Shown here: positions 23,306-34,256 of the stretch, one piece after another | Position numbering within the stretch: the first letter of the stretch is position 1 | How the letters are laid out: the number at the start of each line of letters is the position of its first letter | From: Deltaproteobacteria bacterium | Lineage (GTDB): Bacteria > Desulfobacterota > Desulfobulbia > Desulfobulbales > VMSU01 | NCBI GenBank assembly: GCA_024275235.1 | Contig: JAJRZN010000051.1 | Coordinates: forward strand, 1 to 34,537 | Length of the DNA: 34,537 nucleotides | Direction of reading: 5' to 3' | The notes under the pieces: model-generated | The model's database searches: none | Seen by the model: only the letters and a program-made list of their open reading frames with translations | Told to the model about the DNA's origin: nothing | Program-made: the position numbers and the translations under genes

Positions 23306-25177
23306 TCATTTCTCCGCGGCCCCTGCCGCCTGTGATAAAACCGGGTTGGAGCTCTCATCAACATAGTCGAAGAGGGAGCTGGCCCCTTCTTCGGCACCGG
23401 ACATATTTGTCCGCAACGGCGTGAATATCTGGCGTCCCAGACCGTAGCGGTGAACCGTAAGGTCTGGAATCACGGCCTCACGAGCGCTTAATTCCTCCTC
23501 ACTTACCTGTAATTCCAGGCGGCCGTTACGGGCATCCATCCGGATAATATCCCCGTCCCTGACCTTGGCCAGCAGGCCGCCGCAAAAGGCCTCGGGGGTA
23601 CAGTGAATAGCGAAGGGAACCTTGCCTGAGGCCCCGGACAGGCGGCCGTCCGTGACCAGACCGACGCTGTAGCCCCGATCCATGATAATGGAGAGGTAGG
23701 TGATCAGCTTGTGCAGTTCCGGCATACCGTTGGCTTCCGGGCCCTGGAATCTGACCACTACCACGAGGTGCCGGTTTAATTTATCGGCCTCAAAGGCCTC
23801 TCCCACCTCATGCTGGCTGTTAAAGACCATGGCCGGGGCCTCCACCAGGGTGTCTATGCCGTCGATCAGGGCCGATATCTTCATAATCGCCCGGCCCAGA
23901 TTGCCGGACAGTACTTTTATACCGCTCATGGTGGAAAAAGGTTTGTTAATTGAGGTAATAACCTCATCGTCCCCGCTGCGCGCCGGGCCGTCCCGCCAGA
24001 CCAGTGTATCCCCTTCAAGCACCGGCTGTTGGAGATAGCGTTTCAGCCCCGGCCCGGCAGCAGTCTCCACATCCTGGTGTACCAGCCCCCCCTGAAGCAG
24101 TTCCCGGATGAGCAGGGGCATGCCGCCGGCCCGTTGAAAGGCGTTTATATCTTCGGGGCCGTTGGGATACATCCGCACCAGCAGAGGCACCATCTCCGAG
24201 AGTTCAGAGAAGTCATCCCAGTTAATCAGGATACCGGCCGCCCGGGCAATGGCGACGAGATGCAGGGTCTCGTTGGTGGAACCACCGGTTGCCAGTAGGG
24301 CCACCATGGCGTTGACCACGGATTATTCGCTGATAATATGAGCGAGGGGGGTGTATTGAGTGCCAAGATGGGTTATGGCTGTAATCCGGGACGCGGCAGC
24401 GCGGGTCAGGGCGTCACGTAATTTTGTCCCGGCATTGACAAAGGAGGCGCCGGGCAGGTGCAGGCCCAGCATCTCCGCCATCAACTGGTTGGAGTTGGCG
24501 GTGCCGTAAAAGGTACAGGTACCGGGACTGTGGTAGGCGCTGACCTCGGAGGCCAGCATCTGGCGGCGGTCAATTTCTCCCTTGACAAAGCGTTCACGGG
24601 CCCGCGCCTTTTCCTTGTTGGCCAGGCCGGAGGTCATGGGCCCCGCCGGGACAAGGATCATGGGCAGGTGGCCGAACTGGAGGGCGCCCATGAGCATTCC
24701 GGGCATAACCTTGTCACAGACCGCCAGCAGCAGGGCGCCGTCAAAGACGTTATGGGACAGGCCGATAACCGTGGACATGGCAATCACATCCCGGCTGACC
24801 AGGCTCAGTTCCATACCCGGCTCACCCTGGGTAACCCCGTCACACATGGCCGGTACCCCGCCGGCAAACTGAGCTGTACCGGCAGTCTCGGCAATGGCCT
24901 CTTTGATAATCCCGGGATATCTTTCATAGGGCTGATGAGCGGAAAGCAGATCATTATATGATGAGATAATGGCAATACCGGGGGCGTTGTCCTTGAGAAG
25001 GACAGTGCGGCAGCCGGCCGGGCAGCCGGCAAGATCATGGGCAAAGTTACTGCAGGGGATTCTTTGACGGCAAGGCCCTGTGCCGCGCGCCTCATCAACA
25101 TGACGCAGATAGTTTTCCCGGCTCTTTTGGCTGCGCCTGATAATCCGCCTGGTGACGGTCTTAACGGTATTGTGCAT
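23306..25177 (-). pseudogene. edd: 6-phosphogluconate dehydratase, interrupted by an in-frame TAA
   Basis: Edd is the iron-sulfur dehydratase that makes KDPG from 6-phosphogluconate. Both halves align with the family in one frame of 622 sense codons: residues 1-284 carry IISSYNDLLSAHQPYERYP, the cluster cysteines in VPAMCDGVTQGEPG, LLAVCDK and [13 protein letters not shown]; after the stop come ALLATGGSTNETLHLVAIAR, KVLSGNLGRAIMKISA and LVTDGRLSGASGKVPFAIH. The only defect is TAA at 24323-24325 (codon 285), in the loop just before the substrate-binding TGGSTN motif, where E. coli Edd has a lysine codon region (DEKVVVNG). No frameshift is present. The start has GGAG ten bases upstream. It may be recently inactivated or a single-base error. 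Confidence 0.9.
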
Positions 25178-25253
25178 GACTGTTCTCCATGAAAATTTTA
25201 AATTCTTAATTTCGGTATGACAACCTCAACGGCAACGCTCAACCATCAGACCG

Positions 25254-27716
25254 TTAACCTGATAACACCTCAACCGGCTTAATCTGCCATATCCTGCCGC
25301 AATATTCCCTGATAGAGCGGTCGGAGGAAAATCTGGCCATCCGGGCCACGGTTTTGATTGATTTTTTAAGCCATTTTTCTTTATCGGCATAGGCTGCGTT
25401 TACCTTCTGTTGACAGTCAATATAGGATTGAAAGTCGGCAAAAAGCATATACTCATCGTTAAATTTCAGGGAATCAAGCAGGGGTTTGAATAAATTCCTG
25501 TCTCCATGGGAGAAATGGCCGAATTCTATCAGGTCGATAACGGCGTGGAGCCGGTCGTTGCTGTGGTATATATCCAGGGGATGATAGCCGGACTGCTTGA
25601 GCTCAAACACCTGAGGCGCGGTGAGGCCGAAGAGGAAGAAATTTTCCGCCCCCACCTCTTCACGAATTTCAATATTGGCCCCGTCCAGGGTACCGATGGT
25701 CAGGGCACCGTTCATGGCGAATTTCATGTTGCCGGTACCTGAGGCCTCTTTACCGGCCAGAGAAATCTGTTCCGATAAATCGGCCATGGGATAGACGATC
25801 TGGCCGATTGTGACATTATAATTAGGCCTGAATATAACCTTCAGCTTATCCCTCGTTACGGGATCACTATTGAGCACCTCGGCAACGGAGGTAATCAGCT
25901 TGATAATCAATTTAGCCATAAAATAGCCGGGCGCGGCCTTGCCGCCGAAGATAAAGGTTCGCGGTACCATGTCAAAATCCGGCTCATTCTTCAGCCGCCA
26001 GTAAAGACTGATGAGATGAAGAATATTGAGATGCTGGCGTTTATACTCATGGATGCGTTTGACCTGAACGTCAAACATGGAATCAGGATCGACGACAAAG
26101 CCGAAACGCTTCAGTATCAGACTGGCCACCTGTTCCTTATGCCCCCTTTTTATCTGGTACCACTTCTCCCGGAAGGAGGCATCATCGGCAAAGGGCTCAA
26201 GATCCGACAATTTCTCCATATTATTCAGCCAGTCCTCACCCACGGCCTCGGTTATCAGGGCCGTCAGTTTTGGATTGCTGACTCCCATCCAACGCCGCGG
26301 GGTAACGCCGTTGGTGATATTGATGATTTTATCCGGCCAGAGGCAATGGTAATCTTTTAAGACCTGATCCTTGAGCAGCTGGGTATGGAGACGTGCCACA
26401 CCGTTGATATGACTGCTGCCCACACAGGCCAGACCGGCCATGCGGACATATCTTTCCCCGGTCTCATCAATAAGTGACATATCGGCAACCCTTTGGTTAT
26501 CCATGGGAAAACGCAGCCGCACCTCGTCGAGAAAACGGCGGTTTATTTCACAGATTATCTAATAATGACGCGGAAGCAGGGATTGGAAGAGAGGAACGGG
26601 CCATTTTTCCAGGGCCTCGGGCAGCAGGGTGTGATTGGTGTAGGCAAAGGTCTTCCGAGTGATCTCCCAGGCCTTGTCCCAGGGGAAAAGATGTTCATCG
26701 ACCAGCAGGCGCATAAGCTCAGGAATAGCGAGGGATGGATGGGTGTCGTTCAGTTGAGCCGCCACGGAGCGGTGATGACTGCTCAGATCAAGCCCTTTCA
26801 TGACTGTATGCATATGGATTAAATCCTGCAGGGAACAGGAGACCAGGAAATACTGCTGTTCAAGGCGCAGCCGCTTACCGGCCTGGCTGGCATCGTTGGG
26901 GTAGAGAACCTTGGTAATATTTTCCGCCACCACCTTGTTTTCCACGGCGCCATAATAATCGCCCCGGTTAAAATCGGAGAAATCAAAATCCTTGGCCGCT
27001 TCCGCCTGCCATAATCGGAGTAAAACACAGTTATTTACCCGGTAACCGAGGATTGGGGTATCATAGGCAATACCTCTGACCACCATGCCGGGATTCCAGC
27101 GTACCCGGTAACCGTGCTCCGGGTCATTATAGGATTCCGTATAGCCGCCGAATTGAACCCTGTAGGTTCTTTCCGGGCGATACAGCTCCCAGGGGTTACC
27201 GTAATGCAGCCAGTTGTCGGAATATTCCACCTGCCAGCCGTCTTCAAGGCGCTGTTCAAACATGCCGTGTTCATAGCGAAGTCCATAGCCGATGGCGGGG
27301 ATTTTCAGGCTTGCCAGCGAATCGAGGTAACAGGCGGCCAGCCGCCCAAGGCCGCCGTTACCGAGGCCGGGCTCGGTCTCTAAGGAGATGAGTTTGTCTA
27401 TATCAAGCCCCAGTTCCCCCATGGCCTTACGTACCTGATCAATCACCCCGAGGTTGAGCATGTTATTGACCAGATGCGGCCCTTCGAGAAACTCGGCGGA
27501 AAAATAGGCCACTATCCTGGTTTCCTTTTTCAGATAGGTTGCCATGGAATGAATATATTTATCAAGCAGCATACTGCGCACGGTACAGGCCAGAGCGGTA
27601 TAAAAATCCTGCGGCGTGGCGGCCAGGGCGGGCTTGCCTATATTATGATAGAGGTTATTGGCAAAGGCCTTCTTGATGGCGGCAATAGAGGTTGGTTGAT
27701 TTTTGTTGTCTGTCAT
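25254..27716 (-). pseudogene. glgP: Glycogen/starch phosphorylase, interrupted by an in-frame TAG
   Basis: GlgP releases glucose 1-phosphate from glycogen using pyridoxal phosphate. The frame is 820 sense codons with one TAG at 26559-26561 (codon 386). Upstream parts show VAYFSAEFLEGPHLVNNMLN, PGLGNGGLGRLAACYLDSLA and LNDTHPSLAIPELMR; downstream parts show ITNGVTPRRWM, VKRIHEYKRQHLN and the cofactor lysine in EASGTGNMKFAMNGA. The TAG follows LLPRHY and precedes IICEINRRFL; E. coli GlgP reads LLPRHMQIIFEIN, so TAG occupies a glutamine position (CAG to TAG is one transition). Everything else is preserved. GGGAG lies six bases before the ATG. It is 52 bp after zwf. Confidence 0.92.
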
Positions 27717-27768
27717 CGTCAGCTCCCGGTTTAAACATCATAATTATTCGGCGGAAAATCAGGCTTAT

Positions 27769-29232
<1,464 letters not shown>

Positions 29233-29366: not shown

Positions 29367-29968
29367 TCACGGTGTCTGGCGGACGGGATACAGGGCCGGT
29401 TCCTGCCCCAGGGCAAAGCGGATACTGTCACCGGCTCTCCATAGATCCGTCAAGGCAGACGCCTTACCCGATTCAGCCCTGGACAGCACCGCTTCGGCAT
29501 CCACGAGATCAGCAGCTGAAATTTGCCCTTCTTCAAATCGGTTTCCCTGAATTCTGGCCGTTTCTGCGGCGGCCTTAGCCGATTCCAGAGCCGCCTGGTA
29601 TCTCACGGCCGCGGCATCCCTGGCGGCCAGGGCCGAGATGAGTTCAGCTCTGGCCCGGTAACGAAGAGCCGCTAATTCCTGTCGCAGCATCCTTGTATCA
29701 GCGCTGATTTTTTCCACCTCCGCCCTTCTGCCGCCGCCAACATGAACAGGGAAGAGGAAAAGATAAGCGCCGGCAACGAACCGCGCAATGGTACCTGAAA
29801 AAGAAAAACCGCCATGATAACGGAAAGCAGCATACCACCCATGCCAAGGAAAAAATAAGGGATTATTTTACTCAGGATGATCTCTTTTCCATCCACCCGG
29901 CGAATATCCACATTGCCATAAAGTCGCAGCAGTCTTGCCGGCTGGCGTTTATTTTTACTCACGATCAT
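29367..29968 (-). pseudogene. Collapsed remnant of an HlyD - ABC-2 permease - TolC efflux operon
   Basis: Three gene pieces are fused head to tail. From 29968 the frame reads RLYGNVDIRRVD, the N-terminal motif of HlyD/YhiI-type membrane fusion proteins (about 27 residues). It then continues in frame as EIILSKIIPYFFLGMGG and QVPLRGSLPALIFSS, characteristic of the middle of ABC-2 permeases (YhhJ/YbhR type). Near 29735 homology switches, with a frame change, to the C-terminus of a TolC-family outer-membrane factor (QISAADLVDAEAVLSRAESG; ALGQEPALYP), ending in TGA at 29367. Complete genes would total several kilobases, so large internal deletions have removed most of fusion protein, ATPase and permease(s). 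No function is expected. Confidence 0.75.
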
Positions 29969-30291: not shown

Positions 30292-30320
30292 TTGACAGCA
30301 CCTGTCCCTAACCGTATAAA
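30292..30320 (+). promoter_or_regulatory. Near-consensus sigma70 promoter of the AIPR gene
   Basis: TTGACA (30292-30297), exactly 17 bp spacer, TATAAA (30315-30320): eleven of twelve consensus bases. It predicts a transcript start near 30327 and a leader of about 57 bases before the ATG at 30384, suggesting constitutive expression of a stand-alone gene. Confidence 0.75.
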
Positions 30321-30383
30321 AGTTGCTTGTTGAATGATTCCTGAATACTCAAGGATAAAACACAAATATTGGAGGAATGCGTT

Positions 30384-32066
30384 ATGAACATAAACGCAAG
30401 TATCATTGATCAGAGAATAACAGGAATCATGGAAGATCACGCTGATTTATTGCCTGATGGTGATGAAAACAAAAAAAAATCATCCGCGTTTGTTCTGCTC
30501 TGTATGTCTGCCGCCTTAGAGCTTACACTGGAAGAGGCTTCTGAATTGCTCACCGAAGGAGGAAACGACGCAGGGGTAGACGGCATTCATATCAGTGAAG
30601 TTGATGATGGAGAATTTGCAGTAACAATTTTTCAGGGGAAATATAAGGTCAAAAACCTGAGAGGAGATGCTAATTTCCCGGAAAATGGCGTTCAAAAGGC
30701 CGTTAACACTGTGGCAACTCTTTTTGATCCGGCAAAAAAAGTTGCGCTGAATGACAGAATAGCTCCCAAGGTAGAAGAAATTCGTTCTCTTGTCCGTGAC
30801 GGTTATATTCCCACTGTACGCGTTGTTCTTTGCAATAATGGCGCAAAATGGAACGATCAGGCGCAAAACTGGATTGATCAGTCAGGCTTTACTGATGATC
30901 AGGTAATTTGGATTCATTACAATCATGACAGTATTGTGGCTGTTCTGCAACGCAAAAAAACTGTAGATGATTCTGTCCGTTTGCGGGGTAAAGCTATTAT
31001 TGAAGACTTCAATTTCCGTCGGGTCCTGGTTGGGAAAGTAGCGGTGACTGAGATTGCTGAACTTTTTAACCGACACAGCGATTTGTTATTGGAACGGAAT
31101 ATTCGACGTTATCTTGGTTTACATTCTAACCGCGTCAACTCGGCTATTCATGAAACTCTTATGGATAAAGAAAAAAGGGATAATTTTTACTTTTTTAATA
31201 ATGGAATTACGATGATATGCAAAAAATTCCGTCATAATGCGCTGCAAGGAGAAAACTATCAACTGAAACTGGAAAGCATGCAGATTATCAATGGTGGACA
31301 AACATGCAAAACTATCCAACAAACGCTCTATCCTTCTCAGAAACAGTTGTTTGATGAATCGTTTGAAAATGTATATGTATTGCTTCGTATTTATGAATTA
31401 TCAGAGGATGATCAAGACTTTGTTCGTGATATTACCTACGCGACCAACAGTCAAAATCCTGTTGATTTGCGGGATCTACGCTCTAATGATGAAATCCAGA
31501 AACAACTTGAAACAGGCATCAAAGATCTTGGATTCACTTACAAACGCAAACGCGAAGAGGGTGGCGGCGGTTCGTCTGTTATCACCAGTTCCATTGTTGC
31601 CGAGTCGGTGCTTGCCATCTGGCGAAAAAGGCCGCAGCAGGCAAAATTTCGCCGAAAAGAACACTTTGGCAAGCTCTATAACGTTATTTTCCACAAACTA
31701 AACGCTGCTCAGGCACTTTTGGCAACCATAATATTCAGACATGTTGAAAACGAACGAAAGCGCCCAAGTATGGCCAATTCACCGATTTTTATTCCATACG
31801 CATCCCACTATATTTCCATGCTGGTTGGACGAAAATTATTGGCGGATAACAATGTACGGCGTTCTGATATTAACCATCGTAATTTCAAAAATATCCGTGC
31901 TCATTTTGAGAGTAAAAAAAATGAATATTATCAGAATGCCATCAATGATGTTACAAAAGCATTAACGAATTTATATGGCGAACGAGAAATTTCTCTCCAA
32001 CAGCTATCGGCTACTTTCAGACGTGGAGACCTTATTGAGACGTTGGCAGAACAGGGATCGGTTTAA
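30384..32066 (+). CDS. AIPR-family (abortive infection phage resistance) protein with a nuclease-like N-terminus
   Basis: The 560-residue protein matches the AIPR family, named for abortive-infection phage resistance. Characteristic blocks are NFYFFNNGITMICKKF (about residues 266-281), IINGGQTCKTIQQTL (about 301-315) and YATNSQNPVDLRDLRSND (about 352-369). The N-terminal third has GGNDAGVDGIHI followed by TIFQGKYK, the spacing and residues of a PD-(D/E)XK nuclease core of the D...QxK type (D66, Q84, K86), as in Mrr-like enzymes. The ATG at 30384 has GGAGGA seven to eight bases upstream. The gene is visibly more AT-rich than its neighbours, stands alone between gene remnants and an inverted-repeat element, and has its own strong promoter, all consistent with horizontal acquisition. 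Mechanism and trigger are unknown. Stop is TAA. Confidence 0.88.
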   Translation: MNINASIIDQRITGIMEDHADLLPDGDENKKKSSAFVLLCMSAALELTLEEASELLTEGGNDAGVDGIHISEVDDGEFAVTIFQGKYKVKNLRGDANFPENGVQKAVNTVATLFDPAKKVALNDRIAPKVEEIRSLVRDGYIPTVRVVLCNNGAKWNDQAQNWIDQSGFTDDQVIWIHYNHDSIVAVLQRKKTVDDSVRLRGKAIIEDFNFRRVLVGKVAVTEIAELFNRHSDLLLERNIRRYLGLHSNRVNSAIHETLMDKEKRDNFYFFNNGITMICKKFRHNALQGENYQLKLESMQIINGGQTCKTIQQTLYPSQKQLFDESFENVYVLLRIYELSEDDQDFVRDITYATNSQNPVDLRDLRSNDEIQKQLETGIKDLGFTYKRKREEGGGGSSVITSSIVAESVLAIWRKRPQQAKFRRKEHFGKLYNVIFHKLNAAQALLATIIFRHVENERKRPSMANSPIFIPYASHYISMLVGRKLLADNNVRRSDINHRNFKNIRAHFESKKNEYYQNAINDVTKALTNLYGEREISLQQLSATFRRGDLIETLAEQGSV

Positions 32067-32076
32067 TTCTTAATGA

Positions 32077-32203
32077 CGTAACTGTTTAGCTGCACTCCAT
32101 ATCGGAGTCTTCGCCTACCTCGTCCATTTATGACTTCTTGAGCAGCACAAGTACGCTGCGAAACCATAAACGAACGAATCTGAAGCACATCTAAACAGTT
32201 ACG
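32077..32203. repeat. 127-bp element with terminal inverted repeats (MITE-like or structured RNA)
   Basis: CGTAACTGTTTAG (32077-32089) is exactly inverted at 32191-32203; pairing continues imperfectly inward to about 27 bp per arm (about 21 matches). The interior holds smaller inverted repeats: ACTCC/GGAGT around ATATC and GCAGC/GCTGC around ACAAGTAC. It fills the gap between the convergent AIPR and chemoreceptor genes. No coding frame or clear target-site duplication was seen. It may be a miniature inverted-repeat element or a folded transcript end. Confidence 0.6.
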
Positions 32204-32219: not shown

Positions 32220-34256
32220 TTATCCATCTTCGGCTGTCCGAAAGATGTCTACCGCGATAACGAGCCTGTCGGCGTCGGAGGCGGTATTCTGGACGACCGC
32301 ATTGATATTGGAGACGGCTTCATCGACCTGGTTTATGCTGGCTGCCTGTTCATTTGCCGACCGGCTTATTTCATGAATCAAGGTACCCAGCTTGCTCACC
32401 TTATCGTTTACGGAGTTGAATTTCTGGCCGGCTGAATTGGTTAACTCATCACCGACTTCGATCTGTTTGACCGTGGTCTCAAGCTGATTTGTTGTTGTTT
32501 GCGCCGCCTCTGCCGCCCGCATGGCCAGATTCCTGACCTCATCGGCCACCACGCCGAATCCGGCTCCGGCCTCACCGGCTCGCGCCGCCTCTACTGCCGC
32601 GTTTAAAGCAAGGAGATTGGTCTGAAAGGCTATCTCGTCAATGGTTTTAATAATCTGTTGAGTTTCCCGGCTGGATTTAGCGATTTCGTGCATAAAAGAC
32701 TGCAGTTTTTCCATGGCCTTGTTCGCCTGAATTACCGTTGCTCCGGTCTCGTTAATCAGCTGTTCACCCGACTGAGCGTTTTCCTGGCCGCATTTGGTCA
32801 TGGCCGTTATTTCTTCCAATGAAGAAGCTGTTTTCTTTATTGACTCTGCCTGGGAAACGGCTCCAGCGGAAAGATGTCGCGCGATTTCCCGGATATTACC
32901 GATGGAATTTTTCAATTTTTCACCCATGGCCCGCATGGAGGAGGCCAGCTCTCCAACCTCATCGGTGCTGTCTATATCCACACTGGCATTGAGGTCGCCT
33001 TCCCCAAGCCGGGCGGCAAAGGCGGTACATTTTAACAGGGGGGTACTGATGAGACTGGCAATAAACCAGAGACCGATCAGGGCTAACAGGGTAACAACGG
33101 CCATAATGAGACCAATTTTTATCAACATGGATTTGATCTGGACGTTGACACTGTCGGTTTTTTGTTTCACCATGGCGTCGATGGTGTCAATATAGGCCCC
33201 GGTACCGACAATCCAGTGTAAGGGTTTGTATTCCCGGACGTATGAGAGTTTGGGCTGTTTTTTCGTGAGGCCGTTCCTGGTCGGCTTGGGCCAGAGATAT
33301 TCCACATAGGCCTCTCCGTTATTGCGTTTGCATAACTCGACAATGGCGGTAAAGAGATTTTCTTTTTTGCCAAGAGCGCAGTTGAACTTGGGGCTGTCCA
33401 TAACCTTGCCGTCAAGGGCCGGGGCGATGGGATGCATGATCATTCTGGGATACGGCATAGTAGTGTCGTTAATCCAGAAATAACCAATCCCGTTGTTATA
33501 GCGCATCTTTTTAATATCGTTTTTGGTTTTCTCAATAATCTCAGGCAGGACTTCATCCACATAAATACCGGTACCAATAATCCAGTTCCAGCCTTTTACT
33601 TCCCGGACATAAGAGAGTTTGGGCTGTTTTTTCGTGAGACCATTTTTTGTCGGTTTGGGCCAGAGATAATCTACATAGGCTTCACCGTTGTTGCTTTTGC
33701 ATGATTTGACAAAGGCGGTAAAGAGGTTTTCCTTTTTGCCAAGAGCGCAGTTGAATTTGGGGCTGTTCAAAACCTTGCCGTCAAGAGCGGGAACCGTAGG
33801 GTGCATGATCATTTTGGGATATGGCAGGGTTGTGTCGTTGATCCAGACATAGCCGCGCCCCTGATCGTAACGAATGTTTTTGATATTGTCGGCGGCCATT
33901 TTCTGAGCTGCCGCCAGACTCATTTTACCCTCTGCCACCTCTTTTTTGGCCTGATTAACAAAATTAAAGGCAATATCAACGATATTTTTCAGCCGCGGGC
34001 CGTAGAGAGCAATAATATGTTTTTTATTATGGGCCTCTTTGATATTGGCACTGATGGTTTCATAAGCGATATCCACATAATTTTTAAGCTGCACCTTAAC
34101 CTTGGCCATCTCGTCCCGCCGGATGGTTTTAACTTCCCGGGCCACATTCTGTTTCATGCTGAAGACGAGGAAGGAGGTCATTAAAATTACGGCGGTGAGT
34201 ATGCCCAGGTACTAACTCAGAAGAATTTTCCAGCGTATTTTCAGGTTGTTAAACAT
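32220..34256 (-). pseudogene. Methyl-accepting chemotaxis protein with tandem Cache units, in-frame TAG in the first membrane helix
   Basis: A transmembrane chemoreceptor that would pass ligand signals to CheA/CheW. From the ATG at 34254-34256 the frame reads MFNNLKIRWKILLS, then TAG at 34212-34214 (codon 15), then [20 protein letters not shown], so the stop lies inside membrane helix 1. Two nearly identical sCache-type sensor units follow (about residues 129-235 and 252-358), each with a WINDTT...PYP...MIMHP core, then helix 2 ([20 protein letters not shown]), a HAMP domain and the signalling domain with the conserved hairpin tip ([20 protein letters not shown], then [20 protein letters not shown]). 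There is no C-terminal CheR-binding pentapeptide. A start after the TAG (ATG 34181) would leave only a truncated helix. Everything but the TAG looks functional. Stop is TAA. Confidence 0.9.
33183..33872 (-). repeat. Tandem duplication (369-bp period) of the Cache sensor unit
   Basis: Segments 33552-33872 and 33183-33503 encode nearly the same 107 residues, offset by exactly 123 codons. Long identical protein blocks ([32 protein letters not shown]) and near-identical DNA, for example GAGAGTTTGGGCTGTTTTTT at 33244 and 33613 on the plus strand, point to a recent in-frame duplication or gene conversion between the units. Confidence 0.88.

Follow-up and report, generated by a model that had tools for sequence, protein, structure and literature searches.

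AbiU/AIPR proteins, Mrr-like nucleases and BREX

AbiU/AIPR (PADLOC PDLC02357, Pfam PF10592) has its place in the catalogues of defence families and has long carried an abortive-infection name; in the literature we found no biochemical activity for it. Makarova et al. 2012 (PMC3506569) ascribed an N-terminal HEPN domain to AIPR proteins, and AbiU2, which is a different protein, was listed as a HEPN family in the 2013 HEPN survey (PMC3710099). Among restriction enzymes, the MspJI family has a PD-QxK Mrr-like catalytic site (PMC12707154). That BREX loci can carry auxiliary PD-(D/E)XK nucleases has been published before, and a 2026 survey finds these to be the commonest extra effectors of such loci (PMC12839542). 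BrxU, a type IV enzyme found in a BREX island (PMC8565348), is a working precedent for an enzyme of this type that lies in such an island and acts independently of it (PMC12707154). The literature consulted on AIPR together with BREX does not describe a link between the two, and AIPR goes unnamed in the survey's main text.

The AIPR gene

The window is the whole stretch of DNA analysed, 34,537 nucleotides of contig JAJRZN010000051.1 (assembly GCA_024275235.1), from a deltaproteobacterium of the Desulfobulbales. The gene under study and its immediate signals are:

30292..30320, forward strand: sigma-70-like promoter, predicted, TTGACA-17-TATAAA, outside the block common to relatives
30371..30375, forward strand: Shine-Dalgarno GGAGG, 8 nt 5' of the ATG at 30384, kept in the relatives L002 and L003
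30384..32066, forward strand: AbiU/AIPR-family gene, 560 aa
31089..31937, forward strand: AIPR core domain with the motifs INGGQT and NSQNPVD (Pfam PF10592)

The reading frame is intact from the ATG at 30384 to the stop at 32066. The start listed by the ORF tool was a TTG at 30369, just upstream of the ribosome binding site, and the ATG was used here for the residue numbers. Counted in this way the D66 and K86 of the preliminary description are correctly numbered, and the motifs that it quoted are present (GVDGIHI at residues 64-70 and FQGKYK at 83-88). The match to Pfam AIPR spans residues 236-518 (E 3e-52, 178 bits, cut-off 25). The PADLOC AbiU profile aligns with residues 29-554 over its positions 21-530 of 537 (E 7e-49), and it was matched by all 43 aligned homologs. 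At the profile level, the full-length AbiU match and the AIPR core motifs make this protein a member of AbiU/AIPR, and its Mrr-like catalytic motif lies outside the curated descriptions of the family that were consulted. A cousin, MzaE of the MZA system, matches it only at residues 227-377. The published idea of a kinship between the AIPR core and DndB/DGQHR was discarded (hhalign score 18.5 against shuffles of up to 22.6); the NGGQT loop does line up with the DGQHR loop despite the non-significant score. A search of the window with Rfam gave no match.

A near-perfect promoter had been reported upstream, and the predicted site (TTGACA at 30292-30297, spacer of 17 nt, TATAAA at 30315-30320) matches 11 of 12 consensus bases. 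When the 266 bp upstream were shuffled by dinucleotides, 3 of 1000 trials gave an equally good site; across the window there are 4 of this quality versus 0.67 expected. The gene is also AT-richer than its surroundings, as described before (GC 0.41 vs 0.51): its GC is 0.406 and its GC3 0.36, with values of 0.49-0.59 and 0.58-0.70 in the neighbouring genes. Since 32 of 39 homologs are likewise AT-richer than their own flanks (mean GC 0.443 vs 0.506), this composition is partly a family trait and by itself no proof of recent arrival.

A predicted Mrr-like nuclease core

We have examined the N-terminal part of the protein, where the following elements were located:

30384..31010, forward strand: predicted Mrr-like PD-(D/E)XK nuclease domain, residues 1-209
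30567..30581, forward strand: motif D62-A-G-V-D66, first catalytic block
30633..30641, forward strand: motif Q84-G-K86, second catalytic block

D62, G64, D66, K86 and Y87 are invariant in the close family (43 homologs). A broader alignment took in 33 N-domains from across the AIPR superfamily, with 13-86% identity to the window protein. In this set, which is weighted to motif-bearing members (five with an altered second block are in, the long AIPR class is out), only D62 and D66 are invariant besides M1, and Q84 and K86 are kept in at least 90%. The profile of the 33 domains was compared by hhalign with Mrr_cat (PF04471), the latter built from domains of the same bacterial class, giving a probability of 84%, an E value of 8e-6 and a score of 37.3. 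Controls stayed well below, at 18.5 at most for column-shuffled Mrr profiles (n=200), 13.2 for the reversed one and 11-16 for unrelated profiles. The register of the alignment is correct, DAGVD pairing with DEGID and FQGK with IQAK, i.e., the same DxGxD...QxK order with a D-Q spacing of about 15 vs 17 residues.

The diverse alignment was needed. With the narrow family alignment the match to Mrr_cat was weak (E 0.03), and the single window sequence stayed below the Pfam cut-off, without a Mrr_cat match. When the 33 members were scanned with Pfam, Mrr_cat was the leading nuclease family (4/33, best E 0.002), and HamA was matched by one. No meaningful relative turned up in the PDB by sequence, whether the query was the protein itself, its narrow profile or the profile of the N-domain. 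Taken at the level of profiles and conserved residues, the D...QxK nuclease-type core predicted in the preliminary description is well supported for the AIPR N-domain. Compared with MspJI and the Mrr_cat enzymes, the window protein is without an SRA domain and has the AIPR core instead.

The fold is less clear-cut. The AF2 model of the whole protein (pLDDT 83, pTM 0.67) has a helix at 28-45, a strand at 67-70 just past D66, a strand at 77-86 that carries Q84 and K86, helices at 100-113 and 127-138 and a strand at 142-151. This order of elements in the model is compatible with a restriction-endonuclease fold and is not proof of it. Foldseek of the model against the PDB found nothing at E<0.001; its weak, non-significant matches include EcoT38I, HamA of Hachiman and RPB5. 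The jaw of RPB5 has a fold related to the restriction-endonuclease type. Against viral predictions, Foldseek returned an AIPR protein and a Mrr-domain protein with a probability of 0.98; the viral Mrr-domain matches, too, are weak. The N-domain folded alone, without an alignment, gave a poor model (pLDDT 45). The restriction-endonuclease fold that the earlier prediction calls for is compatible with the model, without decisive confirmation. As for HamA, the PD-(D/E)XK effector of Hachiman, its similarity to the N-domain is weak and non-significant in fold and Pfam comparisons, and the HamB helicase is not beside the window gene.

The published alternative would make this N-terminal part a HEPN RNase domain, following what PMC3506569 says of AIPR; AbiU2, a protein apart, might lead one to the same expectation (PMC3710099). 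We found no Pfam HEPN match in the window protein or in the 33 N-domains, and no consistent R-x4-6-H pair in the N-domain of this clade; what is conserved is D, D, Q and K on a mixed alpha/beta model. The HEPN assignment does not fit this AIPR clade and we consider it very improbable here. The Mrr-like core would replace it, and the conserved D-QxK residues amount to a direct, testable catalytic prediction (D66, K86).

The motif does not extend to every AIPR protein. It is lost in L108, L135 and L139, and there is a long class (L113-L116, L118, L119; mostly 675-715 aa) without the D...QxK motif that has the top Pfam AIPR scores. Because of these cases, the predicted nuclease activity is not universal among AIPR proteins, and the family may be split into nuclease and non-nuclease branches.

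Relatives in BREX operons

AIPR relatives are scattered over many bacterial phyla, archaea, plasmids and P2-like prophages, with only one relative in the viral collection. Most of those found here have no recognisable BREX context, in part owing to short contigs. In at least 13 genomes, PglXI and/or BrxH was found beside or near the AIPR gene in type-3-like BREX operons (L002, L004, L006, L007, L009, L010, L018, L024, L031, L041, L042/L056, L050/L052 and L057). That of L010, from Desulfatibacillum alkenivorans, is a complete PglXI-AIPR-BrxH operon. The closest relative, L002, is 93% identical to the window protein, and its order is BrxF, a PglXI-type methyltransferase represented by its final ~30 residues, AIPR, and the beginnings of brxH and pglZ. 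The tree pairs the window gene with L002 (support 100/98) in a clade completed by L050, which is BREX-linked, and L003, which is not; the next nearest is L004, again BREX-linked. A 'mad3' neighbour in L003 that would have pointed to a MADS system is read instead as a UvrA-like ABC fragment. Other arrangements were BrxC-AIPR-PglX in L013 and, in L021, L023 and L029, AIPR beside a type IIG enzyme and a HKD-Snf2 helicase. The linkage suggests a role for the family in many genomes as an auxiliary nuclease beside a DNA-modification system.

The genome studied here has neither partner of the type 3 arrangement (BREX type 3 as in PMC12839542), in which relatives of the window gene lie between PglXI and BrxH. 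PglXI was not found in it by a search that was positive in control genomes, and BrxH queries gave only generic helicase matches of 25-33% identity. The gene had been called stand-alone, a description to be corrected, with its nearest relatives inside BREX operons and a brxH junction kept at its 3' end:

32073..32077, forward strand: ATGAC, start of the lost downstream brxH, colinear with L002, whose brxH starts there

Colinearity between the window and L002 runs from 30370, immediately 5' of the ribosome binding site, to 32077. The last bases that they have in common are TTCTTAATGAC, and this ATG is the brxH start in L002 (MTKIDANIW...). At 32077 an inverted-repeat element begins in the window, cutting the colinearity at the brxH start. 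Since the two align through the brxH start codon, the window copy must once have preceded brxH. Together, the BREX-embedded closest relatives and the retained junction are the reasons to see the window copy as a BREX orphan.

The reading that we therefore favour, with a probability of about 0.62, is that the gene is left over from a BREX operon that was lost, an orphan AbiU of BREX-linked descent whose nuclease domain is predicted to be Mrr-like. As judged from its sequence and context, the gene is BREX-derived and not a BREX system. The protein would combine an N-terminal Mrr-like PD-(D/E)XK domain (D62/D66...Q84xK86) with the AIPR core. Ancestrally it would have served as an auxiliary restriction effector, its gene flanked by those of the PglXI methyltransferase and the BrxH helicase in an operon of type-3-like BREX. 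The other genes of that operon would have been lost, the AIPR gene, its ribosome binding site and the first brxH bases remaining in a segment that now appears to lie between efflux-operon deletion remnants and a MITE-like repeat, behind a promoter-like sequence not common to relatives. What the AIPR core senses may be DNA that is foreign or carries the wrong modification, or some other sign of infection. Cleavage of DNA may fall to the N-terminal domain, through metal-dependent D/D/QxK chemistry, in the manner of a type IV/Mrr enzyme or as an abortive effector kept in reserve. The window gene would then be a natural example of an effector that outlasted its operon.

The preliminary description had proposed a candidate single-gene anti-phage system, which in that form finds no support in view of the BREX placement of the closest relatives and the brxH junction. 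A version of it deserves weighing, namely that this is a genuine one-gene AbiU system, mobile and working alone, whose BREX placement is hitch-hiking in a permissive defence-island slot. Relatives do occur on plasmids and P2-like prophages without BREX partners, AbiU is a defence protein of its own in PADLOC, and the window gene has an intact frame under purifying selection and its own promoter-like site. The BREX context of L002, L050 and L004 speaks against this reading, and the kept brxH start codon shows an operon origin of the window copy itself, so that we regard it as unlikely, if the most serious of the alternatives.

Flanks of the AIPR gene

The gene was said to sit between remnants on the left and an inverted-repeat element on the right, and both are there:

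29378..29965, reverse strand: ABC-type efflux operon remnants (outer-membrane factor, ABC-2 permease, HlyD-like start), intact in the sister species (G001:C113)
32077..32203, no strand: MITE-like inverted-repeat element, 127 bp, ends CGTAACTG...CAGTTACG, fold z -4.3
32220..34181, reverse strand: methyl-accepting chemotaxis protein, not linked to the left flank in G001

The remnant pieces are at 29378-29739, 29739-29887 and about 29893-29965. The intact operon of G001 consists of an outer-membrane factor, two ABC-2 permeases, an ABC ATPase, a HlyD-like protein and a regulator, and multi-kb deletions have reduced it to these short remnants in the window. The arms of the element (32077-32102 and 32178-32203) form an imperfect inverted repeat with 81% identity. 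This genome has a further copy with both ends (77%, G000:C9:22089-22213) and single ends at G000:C240:1312 and G000:C1:13125, and the element is also found in the sister species (G001:C113:511-547). No transposase was identified for it and no clear target duplication was seen. In the chemotaxis receptor the Cache segment is tandemly duplicated (33199-33351 and 33568-33851, ~83% DNA identity).

The AIPR gene is absent from all three congeners. A search of 37 other relatives gave a single match, distant and partial (30% identity, residues 222-376), in a member of another family. The segment is non-syntenic. These results support the horizontal origin suggested earlier. The flanks are about 83-95% identical to those of congeners, and the contig therefore belongs to this organism. 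From 32214 the right flank is syntenic with a G001 contig other than that of the left flank; with the flanks mapping to different places in G001, a small residual chance of an assembly chimera or misjoin at the locus has to be allowed. Further upstream (23306-29232), a dehydratase (EDD/IlvD), a glycogen phosphorylase and G6PD are each split into two ORFs, and the two match different halves of the same Pfam family. G001 has an uninterrupted G6PD frame of 499 aa, for which reason these splits are read as frameshifts or assembly errors.

Selection on the window copy

The dN/dS between the window gene and L002 is about 0.11. When L003 is used to polarise the changes, 14 nonsynonymous and 37 synonymous ones fall on the window branch and 2 and 23, respectively, on that of L002. 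In the tree the window lineage (0.073) has evolved about three times faster than L002 (0.022), which allows early decay. A non-functional leftover heading for loss, like the adjoining efflux remnants, would account for this speed, for the change of the L002 stop TAG to CAG in the window, which extends the protein by 4 residues, and for the split ORFs and remnants nearby. Broken copies also exist elsewhere (see below). The frame is full-length with all invariant residues kept, and the 14:37 ratio is far below neutrality, about 133 nonsynonymous changes being expected from the site counts. Decay of this kind is improbable in our judgement. Most of the window branch has been under purifying selection, if perhaps a little relaxed, and part of it may predate the loss of the operon. 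Returning to the orphaned BREX effector, a generalisation can be put forward tentatively, at a little under even odds: AbiU/AIPR proteins of ~560 aa would form a nuclease class of the Mrr-like D-QxK type, and one of its clades would serve type-3 BREX as a dedicated auxiliary effector, encoded between PglXI and BrxH, that can outlive its operon and work alone.

Some other copies of the family have had a different fate. Those of L026, L027 and L055 are broken by stops or frameshifts, which suggests that the gene may be costly or dispensable at times. Prophage copies (L064 5926-7590, L108 3689-5434) occupy a comparable position in P2-like prophages, after a DinI-like/SOS gene and before the portal gene, and the note left by the depositors of RE2010 reads 'prevents superinfection'. 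The copy of a Klebsiella prophage has lost the QxK block (QCYFS) and may be a catalytically dead variant.
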